IMG/VR virus record: IMGVR_UViG_3300040801_004428
Location: 64,001 to 118,605 of that record
Source of the DNA: a virus
Length of the DNA: 54,605 nucleotides
Strand: one strand, 5' to 3'
Numbering within the stretch: position 1 is the first letter of the stretch; every line of letters starts with the position of its first letter. Made by a program: the position numbers and the translations under genes. The notes beneath the pieces are model-generated. The model was not told the DNA's origin, did no database searches, and saw only the letters and a program-made list of their open reading frames with translations. Below, piece by piece: positions 2,531 to 35,153 of this stretch.

Positions 2531-2536
2531 CAGTGT

Positions 2537-2543
2537 GGTAATA
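2537..2543 (+). promoter_or_regulatory. Late-type GGTAATA box, rightward
   Basis: GTGGTAATACTG on the plus strand, 27 nt before ATG 2571. Confidence 0.6.
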
Positions 2544-2570
2544 CTGTACATTGGAGAATTTGGGCTAATT

Positions 2571-13069: not shown

Positions 13070-13684
13070 ATGATTATAAAATGCGGTCCCGGTAACAAAC
13101 CCTGTGGGAAGAGATGCATCCCACAAGAATACAACTGCGCCGAGGATGACCTCGAGCCATTAGTGGAACTTGACAAAGAACCTGACCAAGAGCGCAACGA
13201 GCGGATCGAAAGAAACCGCGCGGAGCGAATGGTGGACTATAAACCGCGCGCGGCTTTTGACAGTCCGGTGACCATCCCCGGCAGCTTAAAAGGCCTGACT
13301 AGAGAGATTCTCGACCTTAGCACAACCGACATGGCCGAAATGGGCGTGAATGCCAACGACCGTGATATGATGGGCCACGAAGCTGCAGATACGGTTGATA
13401 TGATCCTCGAGCAATCAATCATAGCCCTAAGTCAGGGCGGCGGCCGTGGGGGAGCTAACATCTACATAGACGGCGCAAATGAAGATGTAATGTTAGACCT
13501 CGCCGACCATCCAAAATTCGCATATCTTTTTGGCACAGAGCCGACATTCTTCCGCGACGGGCGGCGACTAGGGATGAATATCGACTACGCAGGTCCTGGC
13601 GCAACGCCGGAGGACTTCGACCAGGATGTTGTCCCCGACTATGCTCCACCCAAAAAACGGAGAAAACTCTTCGGGATATTCTAA
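13070..13684 (+). CDS. Cys-tagged protein, family B copy 1 (204 aa)
   Basis: Tag at residues 4-23 (KCGPGNKPCGKRCIP...), then an acidic/basic linker, no hydrophobic segment, and a C-terminal domain about residues 75-185. That domain is paralogous to the one at 23911: FAYLFGTEPTFFRDGRRLGMNI here versus KYLFRGHTEYFEDADSGNIGLSI there. No purine-rich ribosome-binding site precedes ATG 13070. It ends KKRRKLFGIF, a basic tail. Isolated rightward late gene; function unknown. Confidence 0.8.
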   Translation: MIIKCGPGNKPCGKRCIPQEYNCAEDDLEPLVELDKEPDQERNERIERNRAERMVDYKPRAAFDSPVTIPGSLKGLTREILDLSTTDMAEMGVNANDRDMMGHEAADTVDMILEQSIIALSQGGGRGGANIYIDGANEDVMLDLADHPKFAYLFGTEPTFFRDGRRLGMNIDYAGPGATPEDFDQDVVPDYAPPKKRRKLFGIF

Positions 13685-16245: not shown

Positions 16246-16262
16246 GGGTTTTTTTCTCAAAA
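16246..16262 (-). promoter_or_regulatory. A-run linker fused to stop of tagged gene
   Basis: Minus strand TGAGAAAAAAACCCATTGGAGG, where TGA is the stop of the upstream tagged gene. Confidence 0.4.
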
Positions 16263-16991
16263 AATAATCTGAGCTTCCTCCGGCAATGCGCTCTTATTCA
16301 AATCGGGGAGGTAATCACCCAAAGGTATGGGCAATGTTAAAAATTGCAACGCAGTGAGAGCCGAGTCTCTTTTGTACACATACAATCCTTTTCTCTCCCC
16401 ACTGGGGTAGTAAGCCACATTGTATTTAGCCCCCAACCGTTCTCGTGCCAGCGCGGCGAGATACCCACCCACGTTATCATCATGATATGAGTCCATCTTC
16501 ATCGCAATAGCCTCCCCATGTTCGAGGGTTTTCGACTCTTCGAGCATTTGATCAAAGCCTTCTTCAACTTTTGTGCCTTTTAACACCTTGGCGATATTCT
16601 TCCCCGGTTTGCTCTTTAAGATTTTCTTTCTCAACCGTGAATTAACAATAGAATTGTTCATCCGCGAAGCGATTCCCATACCCATAAATAGGCCGGTTCC
16701 CGCCACGCTTGCCAACGCCCAGACTTTTGCCGCTTGGGCGTAGTTTGCCTGCTCGGTGGAGGTAAAATCAGATGATTTAGACTTATAGCTGTTTGTTGCA
16801 GAGAGGCCCGCAAAAGTACCAACAACCACCGACGCGCCAATTAGCGACGTGATGGCCACCACCCTGCGGAGTTTATAGTCCTTTTGGAAGTCAACATCTT
16901 CTTGTTTTCCATCCCTGCAGGTGTACTCACTCGGGATGCATCTCTCCCCACAGGGTTTATTCCCCGGCGTGCATTTTACTAAACTTGCCAT
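16257..16991 (-). CDS. Cys-tagged protein with two TM-like helices
   Basis: A 244-aa protein. Tag at residues 6-25 (KCTPGNKPCGERCIP...). Two hydrophobic segments follow at about 42-66 (VAITSLIGASVVVGTFAGLSA) and 85-108 (KVWALASVAGTGLFMGMGIAS). Then come a basic stretch and a C-terminal domain. Its ATG lies inside the end of the polymerase-like gene (13-nt overlap), so the two are translationally linked. Function unknown; the two-helix hairpin after the tag suggests a membrane-inserting protein. Confidence 0.82.
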   Translation of the reverse strand: MASLVKCTPGNKPCGERCIPSEYTCRDGKQEDVDFQKDYKLRRVVAITSLIGASVVVGTFAGLSATNSYKSKSSDFTSTEQANYAQAAKVWALASVAGTGLFMGMGIASRMNNSIVNSRLRKKILKSKPGKNIAKVLKGTKVEEGFDQMLEESKTLEHGEAIAMKMDSYHDDNVGGYLAALARERLGAKYNVAYYPSGERKGLYVYKRDSALTALQFLTLPIPLGDYLPDLNKSALPEEAQIIF

Positions 16992-18862
16992 GAGTTCTCC
17001 AATTCTTCAAGCAGTTCTGCGCTTAGCTCGTCTTCATCCAAGGCGGCTTCTTTACCCATCTTGATGTCTAAGCGGGAGTTGGGCAAATTAGTCTCACGCT
17101 TAACCTTCTCCAATCGTCGATTCATGTAATTATTCACATCTTCGAGAGTGCGGCCGGGTTTTGGAATAATCCCCAGCCCATCAAAGCCGTTGTAAATAAT
17201 CTGATAAGGCATTAATTCTTCATCTTTATCATCATCGGGGTACATTGCTGTAATAAGCTTAGACTCATACGATTGGTTTACCGCCGACATTACGGATCTC
17301 GACTGTTTTGCATCCTTCACCTCAAAACACTTTCCGTAGGCGTTACACCCATAACCGTCTTCCAACATCTTTTTACGCCAACCTTCACCAGCCTTATACA
17401 AAGCTTGGAAATACTCATTTGCGAATAGAGTATCCCGAAACTCCTTATCTGCAGCAAATCCTAACGTGTCAGGAAAATCCGACGCCGCCATCCACAGCCT
17501 CCGTTGTACACCGGAGTTTTGACCCCCATAAGCCAAAGCAAAAAACTGCTCTTTAACCAACTTTTTAACTTCCGGGTTCCAGGGATACCCTGCCTTGTTG
17601 AAATCCGCCGCAAATTCATCCCACACGGATTTGTCTTCCGCCTTAAGTTCGTGAATTCGCTTCATGAGTTCGTCCAGTCTGGGGTCCTTGGTCTTATCTG
17701 CAATAATTGCAAAGTGGGCTGAAACTAAGTCCATTTCGGCCATTTCGGGGATCAACGCCGCGCGAACTGAAGACGACAAGCCTTGAATATGATTAGCGGA
17801 GAACATCCGCGTGGTTACCCTACTCGGCCGGTAGTAGCCTACCGGATTTGCGCGGATTGCATTGAGCTGGCGATATGCTGTTTTGGATGAATCCTCACCG
17901 CGGGTGAGTTTCAACTGCTCGGCCATTGTATACGCTTGGCGGAAGTTGTAGCGAGGCATATCCGCTGGAGTTTGGTTAGCATGGTAGAGGGCAACCTTCT
18001 TTTGGTCAGGATTATCGAGGGAGTTGGCTACTTCGATGGCCAGTTCTTTCTGAATTTTTCTAACCTTACCGATGTTCTCCTTATTGTAGGTTGCACCACC
18101 GAGGGCAAACACGCGATCTTTGGACTGCACCGTGGAGCGTAGGTCCTCCATGAATTGGTCCTTAATCGATTGGGGGAGGTTAAACTCAGCCTCGCGTGCG
18201 CGGCCGTATTTGTATGAGTAATCTGTGTAGTTGAAGTAGGGCTTTTTCGCGCGGGGAGTCTCTCCCATCACTTCGGAAAACTCTTTGAGGAAGGTTTCCC
18301 CATCGCGGTTGCCTGCGAATTTGTACAACACGTCTCGAGGGATGATTACTGTCCCATCAGATGTAGTATGGGCACTATACATCAAATGCCAGAAGAATTT
18401 CTCATGTTTCCCTTCTTCGAATATCTTAGGAAACTTTTTAACCATTTTGTCCCTAAGCGCTCTGGGGACTGAGTTCGACAAGCCGATTGTTTCTCGCACG
18501 GAGAATTTCTGCGACTCAACTGTCTTATGCGATTCGTCATACCGACAATTTCGATCAGCCGGGATGCATCTTGTCCCACATAGTTTTTTACCCGCGCCGC
18601 ATTTTTTATGCTTTGCGCCTCGATTCTCCCCAGGGGTTCCATACAATTTGTGTTCTTCAGGATCGAAGATGTCCACCGCGCGGAAGTCCAACGCCATGTC
18701 TTGACCCTGATATGCTTCAGAGAAACTTAGAGCTTCTTGGGTTGATGTAAAGCCCATAAGTTCTCCAAAACTAAGTATGGCGGATGGAGGCGCGTCTTGG
18801 GCCAAGAGTGCTTCTACCGTGAGCAGTTCTTCAATTGGCACATCGTATGTAATTTGATCCAT
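16979..18862 (-). CDS. Cys-tagged polymerase-like protein (family A palm)
   Basis: A 627-aa protein from ATG 18862 (MDQITYDVP). The tag is internal, residues 88-107 (KCGAGKKLCGTRCIP...). The C-terminal half looks like a single-subunit polymerase palm: motif A EMDLVSAHFAII at about 376, motif B-like KKLVKEQFFALAYGGQNSG at about 431 (K...YG), an N-Y-K segment GYGCNAYGKCF, then YNGFDGLGI at about 552 in place of the usual HDE motif C. Family A DNA polymerases or phage-type RNA polymerases are the nearest known layouts. The motif C change leaves activity uncertain. Own late-type box upstream. Confidence 0.6.
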   Translation of the reverse strand: MDQITYDVPIEELLTVEALLAQDAPPSAILSFGELMGFTSTQEALSFSEAYQGQDMALDFRAVDIFDPEEHKLYGTPGENRGAKHKKCGAGKKLCGTRCIPADRNCRYDESHKTVESQKFSVRETIGLSNSVPRALRDKMVKKFPKIFEEGKHEKFFWHLMYSAHTTSDGTVIIPRDVLYKFAGNRDGETFLKEFSEVMGETPRAKKPYFNYTDYSYKYGRAREAEFNLPQSIKDQFMEDLRSTVQSKDRVFALGGATYNKENIGKVRKIQKELAIEVANSLDNPDQKKVALYHANQTPADMPRYNFRQAYTMAEQLKLTRGEDSSKTAYRQLNAIRANPVGYYRPSRVTTRMFSANHIQGLSSSVRAALIPEMAEMDLVSAHFAIIADKTKDPRLDELMKRIHELKAEDKSVWDEFAADFNKAGYPWNPEVKKLVKEQFFALAYGGQNSGVQRRLWMAASDFPDTLGFAADKEFRDTLFANEYFQALYKAGEGWRKKMLEDGYGCNAYGKCFEVKDAKQSRSVMSAVNQSYESKLITAMYPDDDKDEELMPYQIIYNGFDGLGIIPKPGRTLEDVNNYMNRRLEKVKRETNLPNSRLDIKMGKEAALDEDELSAELLEELENSWQV

Positions 18863-18883
18863 GGGTTTTTTCGATCTAACTCT
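18863..18883 (-). promoter_or_regulatory. A-run linker before polymerase-like gene
   Basis: Minus strand AGTTAGATCGAAAAAACCC, abutting ATG 18862, just downstream of a late-type box. Confidence 0.35.
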
Positions 18884-18889
18884 GGGCAG

Positions 18890-18896
18890 TATTACC
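18890..18896 (-). promoter_or_regulatory. Late-type GGTAATA box of polymerase-like gene
   Basis: Minus strand AGTGGTAATACTGCCC, 27 nt before ATG 18862. Confidence 0.6.
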
Positions 18897-18902
18897 ACTG
18901 TT

Positions 18903-20183
18903 TCATGTGAGCCATTGATCGAGTGCGCGTTTGATCTTACCCTCCCAATGCCACTCATTACCATCCAGACTATCTGAGAAGTCTCTCAATTGGCTGAGAT
19001 CCTTCTGGATATGTGTTAAGCACTTTTTGAAGTACTCAATTTCAGTTTTCCCCATTGGGATTTGGCTGACATTGTCTAAGAGCTCCTCGGTTGTGTCTTC
19101 TCCTAACACCCATCGCTCAACAGCATCTCGAATACTATGCTTATTTGCTTCGCACATAATAAAGCGCCTAGCATAGGCCATTTCCTCACTAGTGGAGGAG
19201 GGTAATTGCTTTAATAGGTGCAACCCGTCGCAATTTGACAGATTGCCTTTTAGTACGGCGATTACCACTAATATTGGCCCACTAGGTTGGCAGAGGAGAG
19301 TATCCACTTTCTCCTCTAATACGTTGGAGACATAGTCAACTGTGGAATCTATACCTATAGGTAGTTGACTCTTAACAGTTGTTGTCTCATCTAAAGCAAA
19401 AACCATCCGGTAGATTTTGCTGTATTTTACAGACTCCACCGTGTGTTTATGCTCCAACATTAGGGTCATTAACGCATGGCGTAACGCCGGCAGATGTTCA
19501 AACCCCATGAAGAACGAGGCTTCCGCGCGGAAGCCCATTGGAGCGCTCACTCGCTGAGCAGTGTGGTAAGCCAAGATGGCTTCAACTGTACTAGCGCTTT
19601 CAACATTCTTGAATTCTAATTCCATGAGATTACTCCATAGTTTTTTTTTTTCACACAAACCATTGAGTCCTAAAATAGTCCGCCCTAAGATGTATCTAAA
19701 CCAAAACTGTGTTTCGGCTTTGTTCACTATCACAACGGCGTAGAGTTGGGACTCTTCTAATTCATTTGGATCCATTGCGTAAATTTCTAACATTGGAGCA
19801 TCAATGCGCGGCTCCAGCGCTAGTAGACTGTCAAACACGTCCAAGGCTTCAATTGGATATGCTTTCTGACCCTGGCACAAAACCGTGCTTTCTCTTAGCA
19901 ATATAGGGGTTAAGCTATACATTGGGCCTGATCTAGACAGTAGGGTAATGAATTCCCTGTATACTCCAGGCATAGTCGGCAAAGAAGATACGGGTATGCA
20001 ATCCCGCTTAACTTCTTCAATGATTTCTTGCACGCCGATTATCTCGGCAGCACAAGTATCTTGCGCGTATAGTGCAAGATCAATCAGTTCGCATAAATTA
20101 TTAACGTCCTCTCCCTTTGCGAAGTCGATACCCGACGCGGTTACTTTACCAAACCCGTGTGCAAATTTAATGTTTGCTTTCAT
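18903..20183 (-). CDS. Apparent fusion of two hypothetical genes (426 aa)
   Basis: Residues 1 to about 180 are paralogous to the upstream 186-aa protein (shared YSLTPxLL, E-x-L-D/N-VF-x-x-L, YAVV blocks). The frame then reads through a complete linker (LNGLCEKKKLWSNL) and continues into a second module starting MELEFKNVES at 19625, which has its own TGGAGTAATCTC ribosome-binding site. The second module alone would be 240 aa, helical, no known domain. An 11-A run in the linker makes a natural slip, a programmed site or a sequencing error all possible. Confidence 0.6.
   Translation of the reverse strand: MKANIKFAHGFGKVTASGIDFAKGEDVNNLCELIDLALYAQDTCAAEIIGVQEIIEEVKRDCIPVSSLPTMPGVYREFITLLSRSGPMYSLTPILLRESTVLCQGQKAYPIEALDVFDSLLALEPRIDAPMLEIYAMDPNELEESQLYAVVIVNKAETQFWFRYILGRTILGLNGLCEKKKLWSNLMELEFKNVESASTVEAILAYHTAQRVSAPMGFRAEASFFMGFEHLPALRHALMTLMLEHKHTVESVKYSKIYRMVFALDETTTVKSQLPIGIDSTVDYVSNVLEEKVDTLLCQPSGPILVVIAVLKGNLSNCDGLHLLKQLPSSTSEEMAYARRFIMCEANKHSIRDAVERWVLGEDTTEELLDNVSQIPMGKTEIEYFKKCLTHIQKDLSQLRDFSDSLDGNEWHWEGKIKRALDQWLT
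19640..19668 (-). promoter_or_regulatory. Early-type linker inside the fused gene
   Basis: Minus strand: CTCAATGGTTTGTGTG followed by 11 A and CTATGGAGT. It ends 14 nt before the internal ATG 19625. Confidence 0.5.
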
Positions 20184-21732: not shown

Positions 21733-21761
21733 TTTACTAAGAGGTTTATAAATAACTCGTG

Positions 21762-22970
21762 ATGATTAAATGCAATGCTGGTAATAAACTCTGCGGTAAG
21801 AGATGCATACCGATGGATTGGCAATGTGGGGAAGAAGAAGATGATGAGTCTACTCCCAAAGCAAAAAGCCGTCTACCTCGTAATCTAGCCCTCGCTGGGG
21901 CTAGCCTACTAGTTGCAGGAACCGGGGTCGCTGTTATTGCCGGCGCGATGGGAAAAAGTGCCGCTGATTTGCCTGAGAGTGATACAGAAGAATTTGCTAA
22001 AGCTGTATCGGATGTAAATCCCAAACTATTTGGGCTGTTTGGCGGAGGAGGAGGCAGTTCTAAACCTGTTATTGCTTCAATCACCGTAGATGAGAACTTA
22101 GATTCATACCGTCCTTCTGACGGTGATGTGAGTAGTATTGTCACGGGCCGGGATGAGTACAATAGGCAGAATCCAAGTAAGAAGAAATACCTATCAAATG
22201 AGGATTTAGTAACCTATGGTGCATCGGATAGTGCTAGACTTAACAGGAGACTAAACGGCTTAAGTGCACAAGAATTTGCAGAGGGTCTAGCCGGTGAGAT
22301 AGCTCCCTACGCGGAGAATATCACAGTGGGTAGTGCCGCTGATGCTTTTCTTGACCCCGATAGTGAAATCGGCAAAATGTTGAGTGATGACTTGAAAGCG
22401 ATTATTAAAGACCGCAAAATCAGCCCTTCCAATATAAAGATTGTAATTGCAGATGAGATAAAGGTACCTGCTTTACGGGCTCCACATCTTATAAAATTTG
22501 CATCTGGGGGAATGACCATAAGTACCCCCGATCCCAATAGTCAGTTAATTTACGTGGCTAGGACAAAACAAGATAGTGAAAAATACAGTAGTAGTGTACT
22601 CAACCATGAGGCAGTACACTGTGTGCAAAAAATGTCAGGGTGGATGTTTTCGGACAAAGATTATGAGGCCGTTAAGTCTATCGTCGAAAGACAAAAAGTT
22701 CAGGTTATTGACCGAGGTGCTAAAAAGGGGCTTAAAAAGACCGTAAAGGGTAATTACAACCGTTGGGTGTATTTACCCCAATATTGGGGCATGGAGAAAG
22801 ATATGGCCCAACAATTTGGTGTCCCCAATCATAAAAAAGAAGAATTTGTTGAGTCAGCAAAGAGATTAGAGGTCGAAGCTTGGGCAATTGGCCAAGGGGC
22901 TCAACCTTGGATGTTGGAAAGAGCCAAGGGGTATAACTCCCAAGGAAAGACTGTAAAAGCTTTGCGTTAA
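21762..22970 (+). CDS. Cys-tagged zinc metallopeptidase-like protein 1
   Basis: A 402-aa protein. Start ATG 21762 (MIKCNAGNK) rather than the GTG one codon earlier. Tag at residues 3-22; hydrophobic helix about 41-66 (LALAGASLLVAGTGVAVIAGAMG). HEAVH at residues 282-286 is an HExxH zinc site followed by CVQKMSGWMF; about 85 residues later comes EVEAW, whose Glu is the probable third ligand (gluzincin arrangement). The same HExxH...ExEAW pair recurs in three other tagged proteins. Protease activity and target are inferred. It ends directly at the RNA gene on the other strand. Confidence 0.75.
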   Translation: MIKCNAGNKLCGKRCIPMDWQCGEEEDDESTPKAKSRLPRNLALAGASLLVAGTGVAVIAGAMGKSAADLPESDTEEFAKAVSDVNPKLFGLFGGGGGSSKPVIASITVDENLDSYRPSDGDVSSIVTGRDEYNRQNPSKKKYLSNEDLVTYGASDSARLNRRLNGLSAQEFAEGLAGEIAPYAENITVGSAADAFLDPDSEIGKMLSDDLKAIIKDRKISPSNIKIVIADEIKVPALRAPHLIKFASGGMTISTPDPNSQLIYVARTKQDSEKYSSSVLNHEAVHCVQKMSGWMFSDKDYEAVKSIVERQKVQVIDRGAKKGLKKTVKGNYNRWVYLPQYWGMEKDMAQQFGVPNHKKEEFVESAKRLEVEAWAIGQGAQPWMLERAKGYNSQGKTVKALR

Positions 22971-23045
22971 TGGAGATGCGGGGATTCGAACCCCGGTCCG
23001 TGACCCTCTCAGCGTCTAAGTCACGTCGATGCCTATCTCATCCCC
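22971..23045 (-). ncRNA. tRNA-like RNA with tmRNA-type ends (75 nt)
   Basis: Acceptor stem GGGGATG/CATCTCC (7 bp with one G-U), discriminator A, no encoded CCA. Perfect T arm CGGGG-TTCGAAT-CCCCG. No canonical D stem or anticodon arm can be drawn. Instead, 14 nt after the acceptor read AGATAGGCATCGAC, like the stemless tmRNA D region (GGxxUCGAC), and CGGAC precedes the T arm as in many tmRNAs. A 6-bp stem CGTGAC/GTCACG closes a 15-nt loop where tmRNA would carry helix 2 and the tag region. A degenerate tRNA is the alternative. Confidence 0.65.
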
Positions 23046-23069: not shown

Positions 23070-23297
23070 TTACAGGTAATCTTCTTGGATTTCCCTTGCC
23101 AGCCGTTTGTCATACGGCTTGATTGTCTCAATTAACAAGACAATTAGGTCTTCGTCGTACGAAAACTGACATGCGGCCTCAACGATAAAGGATTTGTCAT
23201 CATCGTCTAATTGCCCTTCTCGGAGAAGGCCTTGTAATTCGGTGTAATCGCCATATTGGCGAATGTCCTCTATCGCTATTGTGAGTTCTTCTTCCAT
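23070..23297 (-). CDS. Small acidic hypothetical protein (75 aa)
   Basis: MEEELTIAIEDIRQYGDYTELQGLL..., helical throughout, very acidic, with paired-helix spacing reminiscent of a short helical repeat. No domain recognised. A linker lies upstream; a weak start context and the RNA gene lie downstream. Confidence 0.65.
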   Translation of the reverse strand: MEEELTIAIEDIRQYGDYTELQGLLREGQLDDDDKSFIVEAACQFSYDEDLIVLLIETIKPYDKRLAREIQEDYL

Positions 23298-23910: not shown

Positions 23911-24375
23911 TTAGGTTTTTTCTCCAATTGATAGTCCTATATTACCACTATCTGCATCTTCAAAATACTCAGTATGACCTCTAAATAAATACTTCGAATT
24001 AGGATCACTAACTAGTTTCTTAATTCGCCGTCTATCTAAATCAGACTCGGGCTTTATATAAAACACCGCTTTATCGTTAGACCCCGCTTCGTTCCAAGAG
24101 ACACCGGAATTTAGTATCTCCTCAGTATCTTTAATTTGCTTCAAGGCCTCAGCTCCTATTTTTTTCTTATCCACACCCCAGGTTTCTAAATAATTAGAAT
24201 CCTTTAGCACCTTGAGAACCTCTGAAGTAATTGCAGAAAAATTAGTTGGAAGCGGTTCCTTTCTCTCATAAGAGATGGTATCCTCTGATGGCTTCCCATC
24301 TGACTTGCAATTATATTTTTTCGGAATGCATCTCTTCCCACACGGCTTTGACGCTGCGCTGCACTTAAACTTCAT
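23911..24375 (-). CDS. Cys-tagged protein, family B copy 2 (154 aa)
   Basis: ATG 24375 (MKFKCSAASK) overlaps the stop of the Gp37-like gene. Tag at residues 4-23 with a SKPCGKRCIP core. No hydrophobic segment. The C-terminal domain is paralogous to that of the 204-aa tagged protein at 13070 (KYLFRGHTEYFEDADSGNIG). It has the lowest GC of the tagged set, an impression by eye. Function unknown; co-expression with a putative head/tail-joining protein supports a virion link. Confidence 0.75.
   Translation of the reverse strand: MKFKCSAASKPCGKRCIPKKYNCKSDGKPSEDTISYERKEPLPTNFSAITSEVLKVLKDSNYLETWGVDKKKIGAEALKQIKDTEEILNSGVSWNEAGSNDKAVFYIKPESDLDRRRIKKLVSDPNSKYLFRGHTEYFEDADSGNIGLSIGEKT
23912..23930 (-). 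promoter_or_regulatory. A-run linker before 23897 gene
   Basis: Minus strand CAATTGGAGAAAAAACCTAATTGAGG, at the 3' end of the tagged gene. Confidence 0.4.
23940..23946 (-). promoter_or_regulatory. Late-type GGTAATA box
   Basis: Minus strand AGTGGTAATATAGG, 42 nt before ATG 23897 and inside the 3' end of the tagged gene. Confidence 0.45.
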
Positions 24376-25477
24376 AGGTATATTCCACATCTACGTAATC
24401 CACATCAAAAGGCAGTCGTGCCATTCCAGAACTAATCTCTACCCTTAAAGTGAAGGTATACGTCCCCGGATCTACATTATACGCAGGAGAAAAACTAACA
24501 ATTAGTTCTCCATCCTCACCGAGGCTAAACCCCGTAATTAGCGGATCCACATCCGAATCAACTTGACTGATATTTACCACCACCGTCGTATCGGCAGGCT
24601 CAGATAAGAACAAAGAAATATCAATCTCCGAATTTGCGGAAACAACCTGCCCACCGACGGGAGACACATACAAGGTGGGGTAGACCGCCGCCATTGGATC
24701 CGACACTGCAAGTTGTTCATCACTCAGCCAGGGAGTCCTATTTATGGAGTCTTTCTTATATGGGATGATGGCATGCGGAACCCCAGAACCATCTGGTGTG
24801 CCCTCCGCCAGTTCTGCCGTATTACGCCAAAAAGCAAGTTTGAGTTCATAATTACGAGCAGGATACTTACCCGGAGTGAGACCGAGATCCTCGCCGCATT
24901 TGTTGTAATAACGACTTCGGCCAGAGACGCGATCGTAGCGTCTTCTCCAACAGGTGTTTATACCCCTCTCCGTGATGCCATTAAAACAGTTGTCACAATC
25001 AGGCGCAGCCTCATACGGGTCTGTGTAGAGCACATCACAGAGTTCATCCTCATGGGAGATGGACAACACATATGTGCGATAATTCCCATCGTCGATTTGC
25101 TGCCAGTTGGCGGACTTCGGATTGATGGGTTTAGTAGTACCGACGTCGAATCCCGTGAGAAGGGCCACAATTGTGGGGAGCAGCATCAACATGGGGGTGT
25201 GCCCACGCATGTCGCGAATCTCGAGCATTATTTCCCACGAGTGGGTTGCACGCAAAGCAATTGAGTCCCTATTGTAGGTTTGCGGCATGTAGGAGGTATT
25301 CTTATACCTGATGGTTAGATTATCATAGTCGGAGACTCTTCCGGAGTCGCGCAAAGCCTCGGCGAAGGGCCTTACACGGAGTGAAGGCGGCATGATGGGA
25401 TGGTTTCGGAGTAGATCAATCAGCTTAGCTTCTACACTAATGAGGAGGTCTAACTGCTTGGGGATATTATACAACAT
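24365..25477 (-). CDS. Gp37/DUF1834-like structural protein with Ig-like end
   Basis: A 370-aa protein. Residues 1-125 suggest the Mu Gp37-like layout (LLISVEAKLIDLLRNHP, then SIALRATHSWEIMLEIRD and a long helix). A Cys-rich middle (CDNCFNG...INTCWRRR...KCGEDLG) follows. Residues about 270-370 read as an Ig/cadherin-like sandwich (YVSPVGGQVVSANSEIDISLFLSEPADTT..). Such proteins act at the head-tail joint or tail terminator. No good ribosome-binding site before the ATG. The Gp37 assignment is weak; the beta-sandwich end is clearer. Confidence 0.5.
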   Translation of the reverse strand: MLYNIPKQLDLLISVEAKLIDLLRNHPIMPPSLRVRPFAEALRDSGRVSDYDNLTIRYKNTSYMPQTYNRDSIALRATHSWEIMLEIRDMRGHTPMLMLLPTIVALLTGFDVGTTKPINPKSANWQQIDDGNYRTYVLSISHEDELCDVLYTDPYEAAPDCDNCFNGITERGINTCWRRRYDRVSGRSRYYNKCGEDLGLTPGKYPARNYELKLAFWRNTAELAEGTPDGSGVPHAIIPYKKDSINRTPWLSDEQLAVSDPMAAVYPTLYVSPVGGQVVSANSEIDISLFLSEPADTTVVVNISQVDSDVDPLITGFSLGEDGELIVSFSPAYNVDPGTYTFTLRVEISSGMARLPFDVDYVDVEYTYEV

Positions 25478-27593: not shown

Positions 27594-28854
27594 AAGAAGC
27601 CCTCTTATACCACTCAGGAAGAAATCCACCATTCATACGTCTATACACATCCTCACTTGGGAAAGATTGCATCCAACCGTTCAAGCCCAAACCATTTTCC
27701 AAATTATATTGTTGTGATATACCCCCAATCAACACTCTCCCCGACTCAGCACAATCGGCGGGTTTTAACGCATTCGATGCTGCGGTTTGTTGGATCCACT
27801 GCACCATGCGAGTAAAGTCCTCCGTCACATCGCGCGGGCGTCTATTAGCAAATAAATAATATCGCGCGAGTGTTAATTGCCCCTGTTTGAAAGAGCCCAT
27901 CAATAGGGCCTGCCCAGACCAGGTGGCTATATCAATATAGCCTTGAATCATCTTGGCGGTCTCATCCAAAATGAAGTTCATCCTCTCATAGTTAATGTCC
28001 ATTGCTTGAGGATTGCCAATGTTTGATACCTCAATTGCCTCTTGGAGGCCAAACATCTTAACGTAGTCATCCACGGTTGCGCATTCCCCATTGCGCACAT
28101 TATACGGCGTGCCAATCCCATTAACATGCACTTTATCCGGATCGCATTCTTCCGGCGGGTTGGGATCCAAACATTTTAGCTTAAACGAAAATGGAATCAC
28201 CACCCTAAAAGGGTTCTCCGTCGTGCGGAGGAAATTATCACTTGGGGGTTCGTATTCAATTATTGTGTTTTGCGTAAGCGTGACCGTAGGATCGTGGGTG
28301 ATGACAACATCTTTGCCTTCAATTGCGATAGAGGCCACATTCAAGATGGATTCATCCTCCGTGCGGTAGAAGAAACTACTCACTGGAGGTACATACGAAG
28401 GGTTCAAATACTCCGAGAAGGACATCACAACTGTGGTGCCATCCGGCGCGCATTGGATATTCTCAATACGGAGAGGAAGCTGTTGTTCTCTTTCCATAAT
28501 TGAGGTTGCTGAATCGAAGCAGTCGCCATCGGCGCACTGTACATCCGCCGTGGAGAGTGGAATATAATGTTGAGTTAGTGCAGTTCCGGGTTCAGGCCCC
28601 AACAGTACTGGTGTACTAACCTGCTTGTACACAATCCCAGCGGTGGATAGCTCCGCATCGTGAAGTGTATTCGAGCAGATGAGCACCAACTGCCCATATT
28701 CCGCATAAGCATTTACCACCTCATAAACGGTGGGATCCAACCCGCGGATTGTGAAACCTTCTATGGGGAATGGTGAACCGGTGGTTAGCACCGCCTCGTC
28801 GTAGGTTACATAAACTGTATCGCCTTCAATTTTTGTGTTAACTACTAGGGGCAT
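27559..28854 (-). CDS. SwmB/Ig repeats fused to DUF1320 (Mu gp36)-like domain
   Basis: A 431-aa protein. Residues 1-95 and 130-215 are two SwmB/Ig-like beta units (IEGDTVYVTYDEAVL...; APDGTTVVMSFSEYLNP...VTLTQNTIIEY). The C-terminal about 190 residues fit the gp36/DUF1320 head-completion pattern: CATVDDYVKMFGLQEAIEVSNIG, then an all-helical part with MIQGYIDIATW. Last gene of the leftward late operon, overlapping the tagged gene before it by 17 nt. Likely structural; the domain calls are by pattern. Confidence 0.55.
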   Translation of the reverse strand: MPLVVNTKIEGDTVYVTYDEAVLTTGSPFPIEGFTIRGLDPTVYEVVNAYAEYGQLVLICSNTLHDAELSTAGIVYKQVSTPVLLGPEPGTALTQHYIPLSTADVQCADGDCFDSATSIMEREQQLPLRIENIQCAPDGTTVVMSFSEYLNPSYVPPVSSFFYRTEDESILNVASIAIEGKDVVITHDPTVTLTQNTIIEYEPPSDNFLRTTENPFRVVIPFSFKLKCLDPNPPEECDPDKVHVNGIGTPYNVRNGECATVDDYVKMFGLQEAIEVSNIGNPQAMDINYERMNFILDETAKMIQGYIDIATWSGQALLMGSFKQGQLTLARYYLFANRRPRDVTEDFTRMVQWIQQTAASNALKPADCAESGRVLIGGISQQYNLENGLGLNGWMQSFPSEDVYRRMNGGFLPEWYKRASSNLGIQDSGNS

Positions 28855-29776
28855 TTAGCATCTCCGGGTTTAGATTAATAATCGCGTCAAGCGCAATATG
28901 GCCTTTTAAGATCTGAGTTATGAGGGCAACTTGTTGGTCTTTACTCAAATTTTGCTTCTCAATACCTTGGATAGCTTCCATAACGGCCGCAACAATTGGT
29001 GGAGTCTCACCTTCGGCAAATTCCAACTCGCGAGCATTTATACCCATCTCATTACGGCCGATTTTTTTTCTAACTGCCGCATCAACTATTGTATTAATTA
29101 TAGGGGAGAGGAACTTCCCAACCGCATCTTGTTGTGTCGATGTGGCTTTACCCTCCACAATAGCGCGCGCAACATGTTCGCAATTATTGTATAAGGTCGA
29201 ATATTTAATCGGCGCACCTTCGAGATTCATCGCCATTTGGCGAATCTCCTCAACGCTGCGTGCGGGCGCGGCTGAATCCACCGCTTCCCATTTTGACTGG
29301 TTGGGTTTATACGCTTTTTCAAAACTCTCCACGACGAAAGACTGCGGCGCGACAAAATCCCTCCCATCTGGGAGTTTTCGCCCTGTTTTGATGTGGGCAA
29401 TCTTGCCGTCGCCCAAATAGACGCCGTAGTGTGTACCCATGGCTTTGCCCGATTTTTCGGACTTCTCCACGTCGGTGGTAAAGTAGTTGCGGATTATCTG
29501 GCCGGGTTTTATTTCACCCACGGTGTAGACTTGCTGTTCGTCAGATTGCATGTCTTCGCGATGAAAATCTGGAACAAGAACCTTCTGGGTTTTCTTAATC
29601 GAGGCAATTTCTGTAAAAGGGTTGATAAGCTTCCTAGATTTTTTCTTCTCTAGGTCTATCTTCTCTTCGAGTTTGATATTGCTTTTCAGGCCTTCATGCT
29701 CGTGGCACTTTTGCTCGTGGGGAATACACCGCTGACCACACTTTTTATTCCCAGGAGTGCACTTAATTATCGACAT
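28838..29776 (-). CDS. Cys-tagged LRAT-like (NC domain) protein 1
   Basis: A 312-aa protein. Tag at residues 5-24 (KCTPGNKKCGQRCIP...). Residues about 86-205 match the LRAT/NC circularly permuted papain-like domain: KPGQIIRNYF, then THYGVYLGDGKIAHI (catalytic-type His about 115), then YNNCEHVARAIVEGK (NCEH Cys about 197). Family members are acyltransferases, phospholipases or peptidases acting on lipids or amides. No hydrophobic helix. Overlaps its paralogous neighbour by 14 nt. Activity is inferred from the His/Cys pair. Confidence 0.75.
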   Translation of the reverse strand: MSIIKCTPGNKKCGQRCIPHEQKCHEHEGLKSNIKLEEKIDLEKKKSRKLINPFTEIASIKKTQKVLVPDFHREDMQSDEQQVYTVGEIKPGQIIRNYFTTDVEKSEKSGKAMGTHYGVYLGDGKIAHIKTGRKLPDGRDFVAPQSFVVESFEKAYKPNQSKWEAVDSAAPARSVEEIRQMAMNLEGAPIKYSTLYNNCEHVARAIVEGKATSTQQDAVGKFLSPIINTIVDAAVRKKIGRNEMGINARELEFAEGETPPIVAAVMEAIQGIEKQNLSKDQQVALITQILKGHIALDAIINLNPEMLNAPSS

Positions 29777-30656
29777 TTTCTCCCTCTTGCTGTTGAGCGG
29801 CTATGTACATCATTGTAATTAGGTTCAAAAATTGTAACAATTCATCAAATTTGGCCATCTCCGTTTCGGGATTGACCGCATCGCCGATATTCTTCATAAT
29901 TGAGTCATACTGCGCGCGGATGTCAACCTCCGAGAAGTCTACCAACCCTTCGATGATTTCCTCCGAAGTGAGAGCAGGCACTTGTTGAATACCCCCACCA
30001 TCTTTGTATCTCAAAGTGCGGGCGAATACCTCATTTAGGGATTTACCCTTCCAACCTTTGAAAATCTTTTCGGAAAGCCCCTTACTGAAGAGTTTAGCCC
30101 CATGTCCGAGCTCATCATATTGGGAGGAGTATGGAACCCCGTAGGTTACCAAATTTGCAAATCTCTCACAATTTGATAGTACCATATTATAGGTGATCTC
30201 AGTCTTACCCTCCGACTGCGCTTTGTAAAGCGTGTCGATGGTTTTCTTAATCTCCGCTACGTCTCTCTTCTTATTGGGCAAAACCGGCCGCATTTTCTGC
30301 CACGTCTTTGCGTCAAAATCCGACGTGCGGATTTCTCCCTTCTTGTTTTTAGCATCCGGGCCGAGTTGAATAACCGTGTTGTTGCCTACATAAACGGCGT
30401 AGTGGATGAAGTTTTTGTGCTTCTCGTTGTTGCCAATAGAGAGGGGTGTAATAACCACATCACCGTATTGCAACTCTGATTCTTTGACTGGTTTGAGGTC
30501 ACCTAGTTTGATACCATTATTGGAGAGGTTTCGAGCCGTGTCGGCAATTCCCTCTGCGCGGGAAACTCCCCCGGTCATACCCTCTTTGCAGAAGTACTCA
30601 ACCGGGATGCATCTCTTCCCGCATTTCTTATTTCCCGGGGAGCATTTAAGAATCAT
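29763..30656 (-). CDS. Cys-tagged LRAT-like (NC domain) protein 2
   Basis: A 297-aa protein. Tag at residues 4-23 (KCSPGNKKCGKRCIP...). LRAT-like domain about 55-165: LQYGDVVITPL, then NFIHYAVYVGNNTVIQL (His about 82), then LSNCERFANLVTYG (Cys about 159); NCER replaces NCEH. Paralogue of the next gene; both end in helical regions. Overlaps the 376-aa tagged gene by 11 nt. A permuted NlpC/P60-like hydrolase is the alternative reading of the same fold. Confidence 0.72.
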   Translation of the reverse strand: MILKCSPGNKKCGKRCIPVEYFCKEGMTGGVSRAEGIADTARNLSNNGIKLGDLKPVKESELQYGDVVITPLSIGNNEKHKNFIHYAVYVGNNTVIQLGPDAKNKKGEIRTSDFDAKTWQKMRPVLPNKKRDVAEIKKTIDTLYKAQSEGKTEITYNMVLSNCERFANLVTYGVPYSSQYDELGHGAKLFSKGLSEKIFKGWKGKSLNEVFARTLRYKDGGGIQQVPALTSEEIIEGLVDFSEVDIRAQYDSIMKNIGDAVNPETEMAKFDELLQFLNLITMMYIAAQQQEGENVDN

Positions 30657-31776
30657 TGTTAATTACCTCATTGGGGTACAATCCAGCGACTAATGATACC
30701 AACATTAGGCATACAACCGGGTCATCAACCATAGTTGCAGAGATGAACTCAATGGCCTTATTCGGCGCATCTTCCATTTCCCCTGTGCATAGGCCAATCC
30801 TACCCACAAAGTTTAATATATCAAGCTCAGGTTCGAAATCTCCATCTTCTGCGAACTCAAACTGACCTAAGTCTTGCACCGGGGTTGTTAAAAACTTCCA
30901 GAGTTTATTATCCCCCGTGCGTTCTTTCACCTTTCTTTTTACCCGCTTTCCTAGACTTCTCACAGTATCCATACTAGCCAAATCACGGGTTAGTTGTTGA
31001 TAACCATCGTTTTCTCCTAAATCGGGGAGGTCAGTCTCCAAGCGGTATAACACTGCTTCGCGTATTTTAGCGCGGTTTTTGTCATTCCTCAAGTAGTTGG
31101 AAATTAAAATTTGTGCCTCACCTGATTTGGAATACTCATCCAAGCGGTCCACAAGCTGTGCGGGATCTTCCGGATTTTCTAAGGCTTTCTTTGCACCGGC
31201 TTTCGCCGCGCGGATTATGTCCTCCTTTGTGAGAGGCTGCCGGTCGGACATCGACTCATAGTCGGTATCTTCCCTAATTGTGGAAGTAAGCTCGTCGAAA
31301 GCGCCCACGGCGGCATTATTCGCAGCATCAATAGCCGCGGTTTTGATTTTCTCCCTATTTGCGTAGACTGCCACGCCGACTACAGCAATGCTTGCCACAG
31401 CCACAACCGCGGCTATATTGCCAATTTTGGTTTTCTTTTCTGCTTTTTTGGACTCTTTGTCTACATCAACTTCGCCGTCTCGACAGGTCCATTTTTTTGG
31501 TATGCAACGTTGGCCGCAGGGTTTGTTACCTGGGCCGCATTTGATTATCTCGGAGTAGTCTAGTAGGGCGAGGTCTATATCGGGGTCTTCTTCCACACTC
31601 ATGGAATCTGAAGACGTGGATTCTGTTTTCATGCGGCCATCATGGCTGAGGAAAACACCATCTGCAACGTATTTGAACCCGGTGCCTAGGTCAGGGGAGA
31701 GGGTAACATAGAGGGGGAATAGATCCTCATCGTAGTCTACGTCCAATGGTTGGCCGTTTATACTTAGTTTAGTCAT
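30646..31776 (-). CDS. Protein with internal Cys tag and TM helix (376 aa)
   Basis: The tag begins near residue 80 (KCGPGNKPCGQRCIP...) after an extra N-terminal domain (MTKLSINGQPLDVDYDED...). A hydrophobic helix follows at about 122-144 (IGNIAAVVAVASIAVVGVAVY), then a helical, charged C-terminus. Start ATG 31776 overlaps the previous stop by 8 nt, supporting the longer form. Function unknown. With the polymerase-like protein it shows that the tag need not be N-terminal. Confidence 0.78.
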   Translation of the reverse strand: MTKLSINGQPLDVDYDEDLFPLYVTLSPDLGTGFKYVADGVFLSHDGRMKTESTSSDSMSVEEDPDIDLALLDYSEIIKCGPGNKPCGQRCIPKKWTCRDGEVDVDKESKKAEKKTKIGNIAAVVAVASIAVVGVAVYANREKIKTAAIDAANNAAVGAFDELTSTIREDTDYESMSDRQPLTKEDIIRAAKAGAKKALENPEDPAQLVDRLDEYSKSGEAQILISNYLRNDKNRAKIREAVLYRLETDLPDLGENDGYQQLTRDLASMDTVRSLGKRVKRKVKERTGDNKLWKFLTTPVQDLGQFEFAEDGDFEPELDILNFVGRIGLCTGEMEDAPNKAIEFISATMVDDPVVCLMLVSLVAGLYPNEVINNDS

Positions 31777-34033
31777 ATATCATTCCACCTTTCTTAGATA
31801 GATGGACAAATCTCGGTCGTCCGTTTACATCGATGATAATCGCCCCTATGTCGTCTCTTGCTTCGGAGTAATTAACAGCGGAAATTTCAACAATCTGGGT
31901 ATTATTACCCCGCGCGAATTTCGCTACCTCAATTTGAGCGCGTTTTTTTAACTCCGAAAATGGGAGTTGACTCATACCTGAGGGATACTCATAGGAGGAT
32001 GAGGCTTGCACCCGACCGCCAGAAGCGCTTCGTTCAGACTCATAGGTGTAACGCTCAACTGTTTGGCCATCCTTCAAGGTGGTTTCACCCGCGACTTCGT
32101 AAGCAGCAAAGTCAGGCAACACCCTTTCGCCGAGGCTAATGGCTTTGTTGACAGCTTCTTTGTATTGTTTGAAAACCGAGGCAAATCCTTTTTTGTCGTA
32201 CTCACCTTTGGTGGTGAAAGCCTCGCGTGGGTTACTCACCCCGTAGTCAGAAGCAATTTTGTCAATAACAATAGTGTATTGAGAAACACCTTGGTCATTC
32301 ATATCCAAGATATATTGCTTTTTGCTGTTATCACCCTTAGCTTGTAACTCAGCCCAGAGGTCTTTAGCCTCGTTGAAGTTATCCTCCGTGCCGCCATTTT
32401 TCTTATGGTAAGACAGGGTGAAAGGTCTTTTGGGCAAATCTTCCCATAGGCGTTTTTGCTCGGCTGCTTGTTCACTACTAAGCCGGCCTTGGCCTTCTGA
32501 TTTGACTGTATCCAGCACGTCTTTTGCACGCCCACCGGATTCTTCCTTCATTACTTCATCAGAAGAGGCGATTACATTCCCCATTTCATCAATAACGGGG
32601 TCATACTGTCTCAACTCTGCTTCAGCTTTTGCAGCAATATCATCGGGAATTTCTCCCCCAGAGGTGGCAGCGGACCCTTGGGTTAAATTCGCCGGGTGGT
32701 ATTGATCCTCAATACGGTTTCTCTGATCGGAGGCATACTTAATATCGTCCATGCTTTCGCGCGTGCCCATTGAGTTGCCCAAAATTGGTCGCGCAAATTC
32801 GGATGAGAGATCCTCACCTTGTTCGCGATGTTCTCGGTTGAGGTCAGCTACGTAGTCGGAGACCTCAGCTTGGCCTGTTGTAACGTATTTGCGCTCCCAG
32901 TCACGATCCAACCCTTCTAGGATTTTATTACTAGGGTTTTTCTTATACTCTGCGCGTTCGTTGCGGCGGAGTTCATCCTTCCTTATGTTGAACCTCTCTG
33001 TGAGTTCTTCCTCCGTGGCATTTTTATTAAGCACGTAGTCCTCTTCCGCGGTTAGAGGCAAGTCCTCATTTTGCGTGGGTTTTTTAATACCCCTACGGGA
33101 TAGGACATAAGAGTCTAACTTAGCCCCACTGCCAACTTCAGAGATCGCATCTTCCCTAACATCGCGCAATGTACCATACCCTATCCAACTTTCCTGGTTG
33201 GTTTCGCGCGTGCTGATTTCCTCCGGAGAGTAGCCGAACGTATCTGTGAATGAATCCCTATAACGCCCTGACAACCCATCGGGTCCAAGCTCCTTTGCTC
33301 GGTCGTACTCATATTTTGCGCGATTTAACGCAATTGCATAATCTTCCTTTGCAGAAACTTTGCTGGGAATAACCTCATTATCGATTTGAAACTTTCTCGC
33401 TTCATCGTTGGTCCAAGCTCCACCTTCTGCCATTGCCCGCGCGGCTTGCGTATTCGCCCGGTTGGCTTCATTCGCTGTGGAGATTGTGGCAATTTCGGGT
33501 TTTTTATCCTTAGAGGTGGCAATGCCCGCGCCAATTACAGCAATTCCGGCAGCGCCCATGACTGCCATGGCACCAATTCGCCATTTATCCGAGGAGGATA
33601 GTTCTTTTTTGTCCTGCTCTTTGCGGATCTTATCCTCGGGGATTTTCTCCCCATAGTGTTCTGTTCCCCGCGCGGCTAGTTTTGAAGAAAATACAGGATC
33701 GGGGGTGTTTAACCTAACATTGGGATCGGAACCCATTGAAGTAGGAATATTCCAATTTTCTGACGCGGAGGAAAAATACCTCTTTTTAGTATCATCATCA
33801 ATGTTTTGATCGTCCGCAATGGCAACCGAATATTCTCCGGGCAGTTTTTTAGCCAACCCCGGATCGTTTTGCATTGCCGCGCGGAGGTCCTCACCCGGTA
33901 TGGTACCCGACTTGTAGGTTTTCAACTTCTCCGCTTGTGGCTCAAGCATGTCCTTATGACACGTCTGCGCGCGCGGGATGCAAATCATTCCACAGGGTTT
34001 GTTACCTGCACTACATTTCTGTTTCTTGCGCAT
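31769..34033 (-). CDS. Large Cys-tagged protein with TM helix (754 aa)
   Basis: Start ATG 34033 (MRKKQKCSAG) with AAAGGA upstream; ATG 34039 also possible, while a TTG at 34066 is less likely. Tag at residues 7-26, with a variant core GMICIP. Hydrophobic helix about 150-175 (IGAMAVMGAAGIAVIGAGIA). The remaining 580 residues are highly charged and helical, then a small alpha/beta C-terminus. No motif recognised. Largest tagged protein; candidate scaffold or ejected internal protein. Confidence 0.78.
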   Translation of the reverse strand: MRKKQKCSAGNKPCGMICIPRAQTCHKDMLEPQAEKLKTYKSGTIPGEDLRAAMQNDPGLAKKLPGEYSVAIADDQNIDDDTKKRYFSSASENWNIPTSMGSDPNVRLNTPDPVFSSKLAARGTEHYGEKIPEDKIRKEQDKKELSSSDKWRIGAMAVMGAAGIAVIGAGIATSKDKKPEIATISTANEANRANTQAARAMAEGGAWTNDEARKFQIDNEVIPSKVSAKEDYAIALNRAKYEYDRAKELGPDGLSGRYRDSFTDTFGYSPEEISTRETNQESWIGYGTLRDVREDAISEVGSGAKLDSYVLSRRGIKKPTQNEDLPLTAEEDYVLNKNATEEELTERFNIRKDELRRNERAEYKKNPSNKILEGLDRDWERKYVTTGQAEVSDYVADLNREHREQGEDLSSEFARPILGNSMGTRESMDDIKYASDQRNRIEDQYHPANLTQGSAATSGGEIPDDIAAKAEAELRQYDPVIDEMGNVIASSDEVMKEESGGRAKDVLDTVKSEGQGRLSSEQAAEQKRLWEDLPKRPFTLSYHKKNGGTEDNFNEAKDLWAELQAKGDNSKKQYILDMNDQGVSQYTIVIDKIASDYGVSNPREAFTTKGEYDKKGFASVFKQYKEAVNKAISLGERVLPDFAAYEVAGETTLKDGQTVERYTYESERSASGGRVQASSSYEYPSGMSQLPFSELKKRAQIEVAKFARGNNTQIVEISAVNYSEARDDIGAIIIDVNGRPRFVHLSKKGGMIYD

Positions 34034-35153
34034 CTTCATATCCTTTGCTTCCAATTTGCCAGTCAAGGCTTCGTCTGTCTTTTAACGGTGAGCGTGTGGC
34101 CATACGGAAGATTAGTTCCGTCGCGGCAAACACATCCTCCAAAGCGTCATGCGCATCGCCGAATTTAACCCCATTGTTGCGCGGCAAGTCTTGGTATGGA
34201 TCATACCAGTTGCCCATGTCGGCCATGTCTTTTCTTCGGGGTAGTTGTGGCTTGGCGTATAGCTCACCCGTGCTTCTTTTTGGCAATCGGCCGAGGTACA
34301 ACCCAAAGTTGTGCATAATATCGTTTTGAAGGGAGACATGGCCATCCTCCTCCCTGTTTGAGAACGCAATGCGTTCTAACCCATTCTTATCGCACATTGC
34401 ATCGAAGAGTTGAATATCGAAGCGGTTATTGAAAGCAAGTAGGTCCTTGCCTTCTAGTTTTTCTTTAAGAAAAGGATATATGTCCCTAAATGCTGGTTGG
34501 CCTTCAGTATCCGCGCGGGAAAGTCCATGCACGCGTTGTGACAAAGGGTTGATAGCCTCCTCTGGGTCAAGAACCACATTGAAGGATTCAGCCCCATCGG
34601 CGCGGTGGATTGCTATTTGGACAATACCAGGAGGGTTGACAGCCGCGAGGGACCCATAATCATCGGAGAGAGGATTAACTCCTTCGAATACATTCGCCGT
34701 TTCTAAATCAAAGACGTAAGTATTCTCAGCGTTTTTGACAACCCCCTGAGCCCAATCAACCGCCTGCGCATGACGATCATAGGGACTTGCACCAATTTCA
34801 TCTCCCGATATGATGAGCTTCTCATTCTGTCTTGGTTTCACCAAACGGCTCTCATCCGGCAATGCGGGTGCATTTTCGATCTGCTCCGCCGTGGGTGTAA
34901 AAGGCTTTTGGTATGTCTTCGCCGGGCTGTATTTAGACCTCGATACTAGGACGGCCCCGATGGCTATACCACCAAACGTGGCAGTAGCCGTTGCAAGGAG
35001 TGCTAAATTTTGCGGCTTAAAACTCGGCGGTTTTTTAACCCTCGGCTTTGCCGCGGCAACAACACCATCGACGTGGCATTCCCATTTGACGGGAATGCAC
35101 CGCTTGCCACACTGCTTATGGCCGTGTTTACATTGTAAGAAGGAGGTAACCAT
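34011..35153 (-). CDS. Cys-tagged DEDDh 3'-5' exonuclease (DnaQ-like)
   Basis: A 380-aa protein. Tag at residues 8-27 (QCKHGHKQCGKRCIP...) and hydrophobic helix about 48-70 (NLALLATATATFGGIAIGAVLVS). The DnaQ-like domain has YVFDLET (Exo I, D and E near 147-149), RVHGLS, LLAFNNRFDIQLFD (Exo II, about 238-248) and FGDAHDALEDVFA (Exo III, His and Asp near 330). All DEDDh residues are present, so 3'-5' nuclease activity is likely. It directly follows terminase and has its own late-type box. Confidence 0.82.
   Translation of the reverse strand: MVTSFLQCKHGHKQCGKRCIPVKWECHVDGVVAAAKPRVKKPPSFKPQNLALLATATATFGGIAIGAVLVSRSKYSPAKTYQKPFTPTAEQIENAPALPDESRLVKPRQNEKLIISGDEIGASPYDRHAQAVDWAQGVVKNAENTYVFDLETANVFEGVNPLSDDYGSLAAVNPPGIVQIAIHRADGAESFNVVLDPEEAINPLSQRVHGLSRADTEGQPAFRDIYPFLKEKLEGKDLLAFNNRFDIQLFDAMCDKNGLERIAFSNREEDGHVSLQNDIMHNFGLYLGRLPKRSTGELYAKPQLPRRKDMADMGNWYDPYQDLPRNNGVKFGDAHDALEDVFAATELIFRMATRSPLKDRRSLDWQIGSKGYEDAQETEM

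Follow-up and report, generated by a model that had tools for sequence, protein, structure and literature searches.

A tRNA-like domain of tmRNA without a tag reading frame, encoded in a virus genome and in a large family of phage relatives

Introduction

A small gene in the virus record IMGVR_UViG_3300040801_004428 encodes the complete tRNA-like domain (TLD) of tmRNA, closed by one hairpin. The stretch of DNA analyzed, termed here the window, comprises positions 64,001 to 118,605 of the record and is 54,605 nt in length. The gene, termed mini-tmRNA, is 75 nt in length and is located on the minus strand at window positions 22971–23045, with its 5′ end at 23045 and the discriminator residue A73 at 22971. 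It is almost certainly a real TLD-only tmRNA gene that is kept by selection. TLD-only phage RNA is already known as a kind from mycobacteriophage DS6A, but it has barely been described, and the window RNA is a further member. An earlier note on this DNA had treated the RNA as a singleton, which proved too narrow; the RNA is one of a large family in phages, and a precedent has been published.

Nearly all bacteria possess trans-translation, and the mini-tmRNA may bear on how phages deal with it. It is proposed, with a probability of about 0.6, that the RNA is a phage-encoded, SmpB-dependent, alanylated TLD-only tmRNA mimic that inhibits or diverts host trans-translation.

Structure of the window RNA

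The nucleotide sequence of the RNA reads, from 5′ to 3′, GGGGAUG-AGAUAGGCA-UCGA-CGUGACUUAGACGCUGAGAGGGUCACG-GAC-CGGGGUUCGAAUCCCCG-CAUCUCC-A, and all coordinates of its parts are on the minus strand. The acceptor stem is formed by GGGGAUG at 23039–23045 and CAUCUCC at 22972–22978, with all seven positions paired (GGGGATG/CATCTCC in the DNA). G3 at 23043 pairs with U70 at 22974. This third acceptor pair and A73 make up the identity of alanyl-tRNA synthetase (AlaRS), and both are present. CCA is not encoded, and A73 is followed by UUA (TTA in the DNA). The D region, AGAUA-GGCA-UCGA at 23026–23038 (GGCAUCGAC), is stemless, and E. coli tmRNA numbering fits it exactly. U17 and G19 of this region, and also A334, are positions that contact SmpB in tmRNA (PMC8363625), and all three are present in the window RNA. 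As aligned to the Rfam tmRNA model RF00023, the variable segment GAC is at 22996–22998 and the T arm, CGGGG-UUCGAAU-CCCCG, is at 22979–22995 and is perfectly paired. CGGAC precedes the T arm.

Between the two TLD halves there is a single 27 nt hairpin, P2, with the sequence CGUGACUU-AGACGCUGAGA-GGGUCACG at 22999–23025, which is assigned by folding and by P2 covariation across the family. It has six Watson-Crick pairs, two G.U pairs and an 11 nt loop, and occupies the place of the whole mRNA-like domain and pseudoknots. Pseudoknots PK1–PK4 are absent. With 316 model positions deleted and a loop of 11 nt, the RNA has no resume codon, tag frame or stop-bearing mRNA-like domain. It also has no D stem and no anticodon arm of 5 bp and 7 nt, and the TLD halves are in standard order and not permuted.

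These properties bear out the observation of the earlier note, whose features are all present at 22971–23045: the perfect acceptor stem, the perfect T arm, CGGAC before the T arm, the stemless D region and the lack of an encoded CCA are all seen in the sequence. The note gave no strand, which is minus. Its 6 bp hairpin in place of the anticodon and mRNA-like domain is indeed a single hairpin with six Watson-Crick pairs, but the two additional G.U pairs had gone uncounted.

RF00023 scores the window RNA at 65.6 bits, above the gathering score of 47 and far from what chance would give (E = 2.2e-23), and is the best model of clan CL00001. The alignment runs from the first to the last model position, with the 316 deleted positions lying inside. 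The score on a short stretch with laxer filters is 49.7 bits. A model of the family described below, termed R1, gives 63.1 bits, although the R1 alignment includes the window sequence. ARAGORN calls neither a tRNA nor a tmRNA. A covariance-model search and inspection of the acceptor for an alanine G-U pair were the checks proposed in the earlier note, and both turned out positive, with RF00023 above its cut-off and G3.U70 in place. A normal tRNA with a clear anticodon, the outcome that the note had set against its own reading, is not what was found, as there is no anticodon arm and no ARAGORN call. Its suggestion of a degenerate tRNA also finds no support: the D stem and anticodon arm are missing, RF00023 is the best model, ARAGORN makes no call, and the family is under strong purifying selection. 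A two-piece tmRNA was considered and rejected: the permuted tmRNA model RF04321 scores 25.5 bits, below its cut-off of 47, and the halves are in the standard order. The single-sequence fold is −27.4 kcal/mol, which is not significant (z = −1.35), and its shape is cloverleaf-like, as expected. Since single-sequence folding is not significant, the case for the window RNA rests on the family model and on comparative evidence.

A family of phage relatives

Viral contigs were scanned for TCGAC and a GGAC-T-arm with a short insert between them, and a perfect 7 bp acceptor and perfect T stem were then required. The pattern scan and pairing filter are passed by at least 342 contigs of viruses, in which 225 different sequences are represented. 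In most members the length to A73 is 78–80 nt, which is the length of a bare TLD, and lengths are tightly clustered. G3.U70 and A73 are found in all 342 relatives; the filter imposed pairing only and neither of these bases. As a guard against circularity in these counts, a second scan left free the acceptor, the D region, the variable segment and A73; its fixed elements were the inner hairpin and a portion of the T arm. This yielded 22 distinct relatives, all of which have the perfect acceptor, G3.U70 and A73; TCGAC is present in 19 of the 22 and GGAC in at least 19. The comparison supports a suggestion of the earlier note, that the RNA may be an alanylation substrate: the alanine identity is constant in the 342 relatives, and acceptor pairs 4–7 vary freely across the family, with compensation.

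Covariation was determined for 99 members aligned by fitting to model R1, and, with the caution that a fit to structure favours structure, 90.7% of cells pair. Two-sided changes number 529, compared with 173 ± 11 in shuffles, and the covariation score is 0.597 versus 0.131; sliding the partners destroys the signal. A pattern-anchored count of P2 made without a model shows 85% paired, compared with 42% for shuffled partners and 35–39% for slid ones. In 140 of 151 members, which have inserts of 29–34 nt, P2 runs past an A-rich internal loop into a 3 bp helix that is often CCG/CGG or CCC/GGG. A GNRA or CANG tetraloop is present at this inner helix in 61% of inserts but in only 1.3% of shuffled inserts. 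The inner helix is missing from the hairpin of the window RNA, and the relative L081 is similar. Comparative evidence thus indicates that the mini-tmRNA structure is under selection.

The family has divergent members. In L482 and L483 the acceptor, G3.U70 and inner hairpin are kept and GGAC is lost (GCAT, GTAC); L483 is also without TCGAC. These may be drifting copies or users of another partner. A minority has longer or different inserts, up to ∼72 nt (L057, L066, L333, L339, L402, L429 and L431), and may represent intermediates between full tmRNA and the 79 nt form.

Several other candidates were set aside. A tmRNA with a very short tag was rejected, as the inserts share no frame or stop, and only 84 of 151 relatives have stop triplets in them. 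Weak R1 matches of 24–36 bits in Pseudomonas SM1/PA_L9, Xanthomonas Rb1, Tunturi_4, S-CRM01, Kumao and Phabba were not counted; Kumao and Phabba are annotated as having full tmRNAs. ARAGORN “tmRNA” calls of 324–644 nt overlap some relatives, but those checked, in L031 and L229, look spurious because the Rfam match is confined to the short TLD.

The same pattern gave no perfect-acceptor case in 118 stretches from bacterial genomes, among the matches listed. The mini-tmRNA was also not found in 595 bacterial genomes of two phyla, a weak negative, as scoring was limited to 15 candidates per genome and no positive control gave a signal. Among plasmids there is a single match, and this is a phage-plasmid that has genes for terminase and capsid. 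In the samples searched, the mini-tmRNA is restricted to phage records.

Genomic setting and gene contexts

The virus record is 118,605 bases in length and has a terminase (terL) and a tail sheath that are cyanophage-like. The terminase is closest to those of cyanophages (33% to Synechococcus phage S-CBWM1), and the tail sheath matches cyanophages, among the matches listed. The host is therefore likely to be a cyanobacterium, judging from these two proteins. No second tmRNA is present elsewhere in the record, and its two tRNA genes are far from the mini-tmRNA. A BLAST search of the window DNA against phages gave no match. Twenty-four nucleotides upstream of the mini-tmRNA, on the same strand, is an open reading frame of 75 amino acids (23070–23297, minus strand) with no PHROG match, with which the mini-tmRNA could be co-transcribed. 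A convergent open reading frame at 21759–22970 (plus strand) has a stop codon that abuts A73; its Cys-tag protein has no PHROG or Pfam match.

This Cys tag recurs in the window. One Cys-rich motif, in most cases N-terminal (similar to KCGPGNKPCGKRCIPxxxxC), is common to approximately 16 proteins that for the most part have nothing else in common. On the minus strand their open reading frames are at 1055–1828, 1832–2497, 16257–16991, 16979–18964, 23911–24390, 28838–29776, 29763–30656, 30646–31776, 31769–34066 and 34011–35153; on the plus strand they are at 2535–3341, 13070–13684, 21759–22970, 41266–42273, 42270–43514 and 43511–44584. The protein encoded at 28838–29776 has an LRAT-type (NlpC/P60-like) domain, PF04970, behind the motif; most of the motif proteins have no Pfam match. 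One of these proteins that was tested has no relative in phage records, and a six-frame search of the other loci of the study found no copy of the motif outside this virus record. A role of the motif as a common tag for targeting, packaging or metal binding is conceivable.

The gene contexts of the family vary. Among 177 distinct sequences examined, terL, the RNA and portal are consecutive on one strand in 20 loci, and in 12 loci the RNA is immediately before the major capsid gene; some other loci are near replication genes. In approximately 13% a tRNA gene lies no more than 200 nt away, and in 33 of these 34 cases it is on the same strand; most loci are without tRNA. In the Streptomyces phages LuckySocke, Shaeky, BRock and pSt2308 the RNA is in tRNA arrays, with no feature listed for it in the records; in Shaeky it lies amid many tRNA species. 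RNA ligase genes are also present in some of the tRNA arrays in which the mini-tmRNA is found. In Stenotrophomonas phage Jojan60 it lies under a hypothetical open reading frame (79 bits).

A longer tmRNA is the best tmRNA match in only two of 53 carrier records, those of Riptide and G038, and the G038 locus is not a perfect-acceptor member. The Streptomyces phage Riptide (PV654398.1) apparently has both forms, a diverged mini-tmRNA at 83298–83376 and a longer tmRNA-like gene of ∼269 nt at 94862–95130 (92.9 bits). No smpB was found in the 53 carrier phage records, and therefore host SmpB would be used. A partner similar to RF-1 or ArfB is not a general neighbour, with an RF-1 domain above cut-off in three of 56 records, two of which carry the RNA. 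Tunturiibacter phage Tunturi_4 (PP885687.1, near 43,881–44,293; positions 1620–2034 of L452) has an annotated RF-1-domain release factor gene just upstream of a weak tmRNA-like T arm (R1, 24.8 bits), and possibly these are a rescue-related pair.

In six of ∼30 loci scanned, the strand that encodes the mini-tmRNA also has a Pistol self-cleaving ribozyme. Two are ∼105 nt upstream of it (L031, 6093–6154, and L078, 11838–11899, both minus strand), and four are ∼2–3 kb away (L041, 1621–1716; L050, 5916–6012; L038, 13302–13377; L404, 6292–6379). A close Pistol and the mini-tmRNA might be in one transcript.

Proposed function and alternatives

In tmRNA, AlaRS uses G3.U70 and A73, EF-Tu uses the acceptor and the T arm, and SmpB uses the D region; the mini-tmRNA has kept all of these and has lost the message. 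Charging, SmpB binding and competition are proposed on this basis. The phage RNA would undergo tRNA-type processing and CCA addition and would be charged by the host alanyl-tRNA synthetase through G3.U70. It may then bind host SmpB and compete with tmRNA for stalled ribosomes. Without a resume codon or tag, rescue would end after at most one alanine; SmpB would be titrated, tagging for proteolysis would stop, and host trans-translation would be inhibited or diverted during infection. We infer all of these steps, from transcription, processing and charging through SmpB binding and entry into the ribosome to inhibition and an advantage for the phage.

There are precedents for parts of this scheme. 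For DS6A and its TLD-only RNA, inhibition of the endogenous tmRNA of E. coli has been reported, as stated in PMC11915505 and PMC4131195, which cite Mao et al. 2009. A truncated tmRNA binds the ribosome together with SmpB and EF-Tu in a published crystal structure, as cited in PMC8363625. The “minimal charged decoy” of the earlier note is accordingly the best-supported candidate function, given the retained SmpB- and EF-Tu-facing parts, the lost tag and the DS6A precedent, with rescue without a tag as a less probable alternative. On the other hand, some phages might be expected to need trans-translation, which counts against inhibition. The passage on a similar RNA in PMC4131195 states that it inhibits tmRNA whether or not it is chargeable, so SmpB titration alone leaves the strict alanine identity unexplained. 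This identity favours competition for the A site, or tagless rescue, over plain titration of SmpB.

The main rival to inhibition is that the charged RNA, with host SmpB, takes the stalled peptide and frees the ribosome without tagging, as the phage's own rescue RNA. The strictly conserved charging identity (342 of 342) is in keeping with this, as is the location of several members in phage tRNA arrays such as that of Shaeky, as if they were part of a translation kit; moreover, mitochondrial tmRNAs that lack a coding sequence (CDS) persist together with SmpB (PMC11915505). Yet Helicobacter pylori cannot live with a tmRNA mutated in its resume codon, so that rescue in that species requires this codon and is not achieved by a charged TLD without it (PMC2584231), which is in keeping with inhibition. 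The DS6A RNA, in the account given in PMC11915505, inhibits tmRNA and does not support it. No release activity is visible in the RNA, and RF-1-domain proteins are rare in the records. Rescue of this type appears unlikely, though worth weighing. It is quite improbable that the RNA is a decoy for a host defence factor recognizing tmRNA or the SmpB-tmRNA complex, and not for trans-translation itself. CoCoNuT systems carry SmpB-like domains for which binding to tmRNA is predicted, and among the targets of RtcB, SsrA is reported to be the most frequent (PMC11090510); the RNA ligase genes in some of the tRNA arrays would also fit. This is prediction only, however, and such a system is not known from any host of these metagenomic phages.

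Two further explanations dispense with a function for the free RNA in trans-translation. The element might act in cis, as an RNase P or RNase Z processing site or a leader in polycistronic mRNA, and the 20 terL–RNA–portal loci and the 12 loci before the major capsid gene are arranged as such an element would be. However, G3.U70, A73 and the nucleotides that contact SmpB would be superfluous in a mere cleavage signal, and the RNA is also found in tRNA arrays, in replication modules and, in the case of the window, where a convergent gene ends, which makes this explanation very improbable. That it derives from a host tmRNA gene as an integration-site (attP) copy or a remnant, or is a tRNA that has degenerated, is hardly credible. 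tmRNA genes are common integration sites (PMC11915505), and bare 3′ fragments do occur, for example an attR-annotated match in a Pseudomonas phage (H51). Here, both TLD halves are present and paired, the stems covary, lengths cluster tightly, and the bacterial stretches searched gave no perfect-acceptor case among the matches listed. For the window RNA itself, an integration-site fragment was rejected in view of the complete 5′ half, the covarying halves and the lack of an integrase among the neighbouring open reading frames examined.

Inhibition or diversion of host trans-translation is thus the preferred reading. Because hundreds of phages carry relatives, phages appear to interfere with or take over the freeing of host ribosomes. 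Chances are roughly even that many phage lineages repeatedly took up a small alanylated tmRNA mimic as an anti-host (or anti-defence) RNA directed at trans-translation, and that such counter-factors, consisting of RNA and not of protein, are widespread and unannotated. If the RNA is charged and enters stalled ribosomes, phages would be using a natural dominant-negative tmRNA. The cultured carriers, Streptomyces phages LuckySocke and BRock and Stenotrophomonas phage Jojan60, make the hypothesis testable. Since ARAGORN misses the family and the GenBank records examined leave the RNA unannotated, the family can enter phage annotation by way of the Rfam tmRNA model or a dedicated model.

Comparison with known systems

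In a survey of tmRNA sequences, the class “Standard, no CDS” comprises nine of 97,179 sequences, those of DS6A and a handful of organellar or bacterial cases (PMC11915505). The main protocol of that survey consisted of ARAGORN and BLAST hits, and ARAGORN misses the window RNA. In the literature searched, mostly outside subscription journals, no description was found of a widespread phage family, a conserved alanine identity, a capped hairpin or the gene contexts.

Standard one-piece tmRNA (RF00023) has in common with the window RNA the acceptor with G3.U70, A73, the GGNNUCGAC D region, CGGAC, the T arm and the start of P2. It differs by its mRNA-like domain, resume codon, tag, stop codon and pseudoknots, all of which are absent here. 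Two-piece tmRNA (RF04321) also shares the TLD features, but in the window RNA a hairpin joins the two halves, which follow the normal order and are not permuted. Mitochondrial and plastid tmRNAs without a CDS keep the TLD and lack a tag frame, and two plastid cases are ∼65 bp in length; in contrast to the mini-tmRNA, the mitochondrial forms are usually permuted, and these organellar RNAs are treated as reductive forms, not as phage genes (PMC11915505). The truncated tmRNA of the ribosome-SmpB-EF-Tu crystal is likewise a TLD without the pseudoknot ring or mRNA-like domain, but it is a laboratory construct, as cited in PMC8363625.

The closest known RNA is that of mycobacteriophage DS6A (“Standard, no CDS”; PMC4131195, PMC11915505), which, like the window RNA, is phage-encoded, has the TLD in standard order and has no tag frame; the likeness is by description, the sequences not having been compared. 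DS6A is a single named phage, whereas the family reported here is present in at least 342 viral contigs and in many gene contexts, and most of its members have a recurrent capped inner hairpin.
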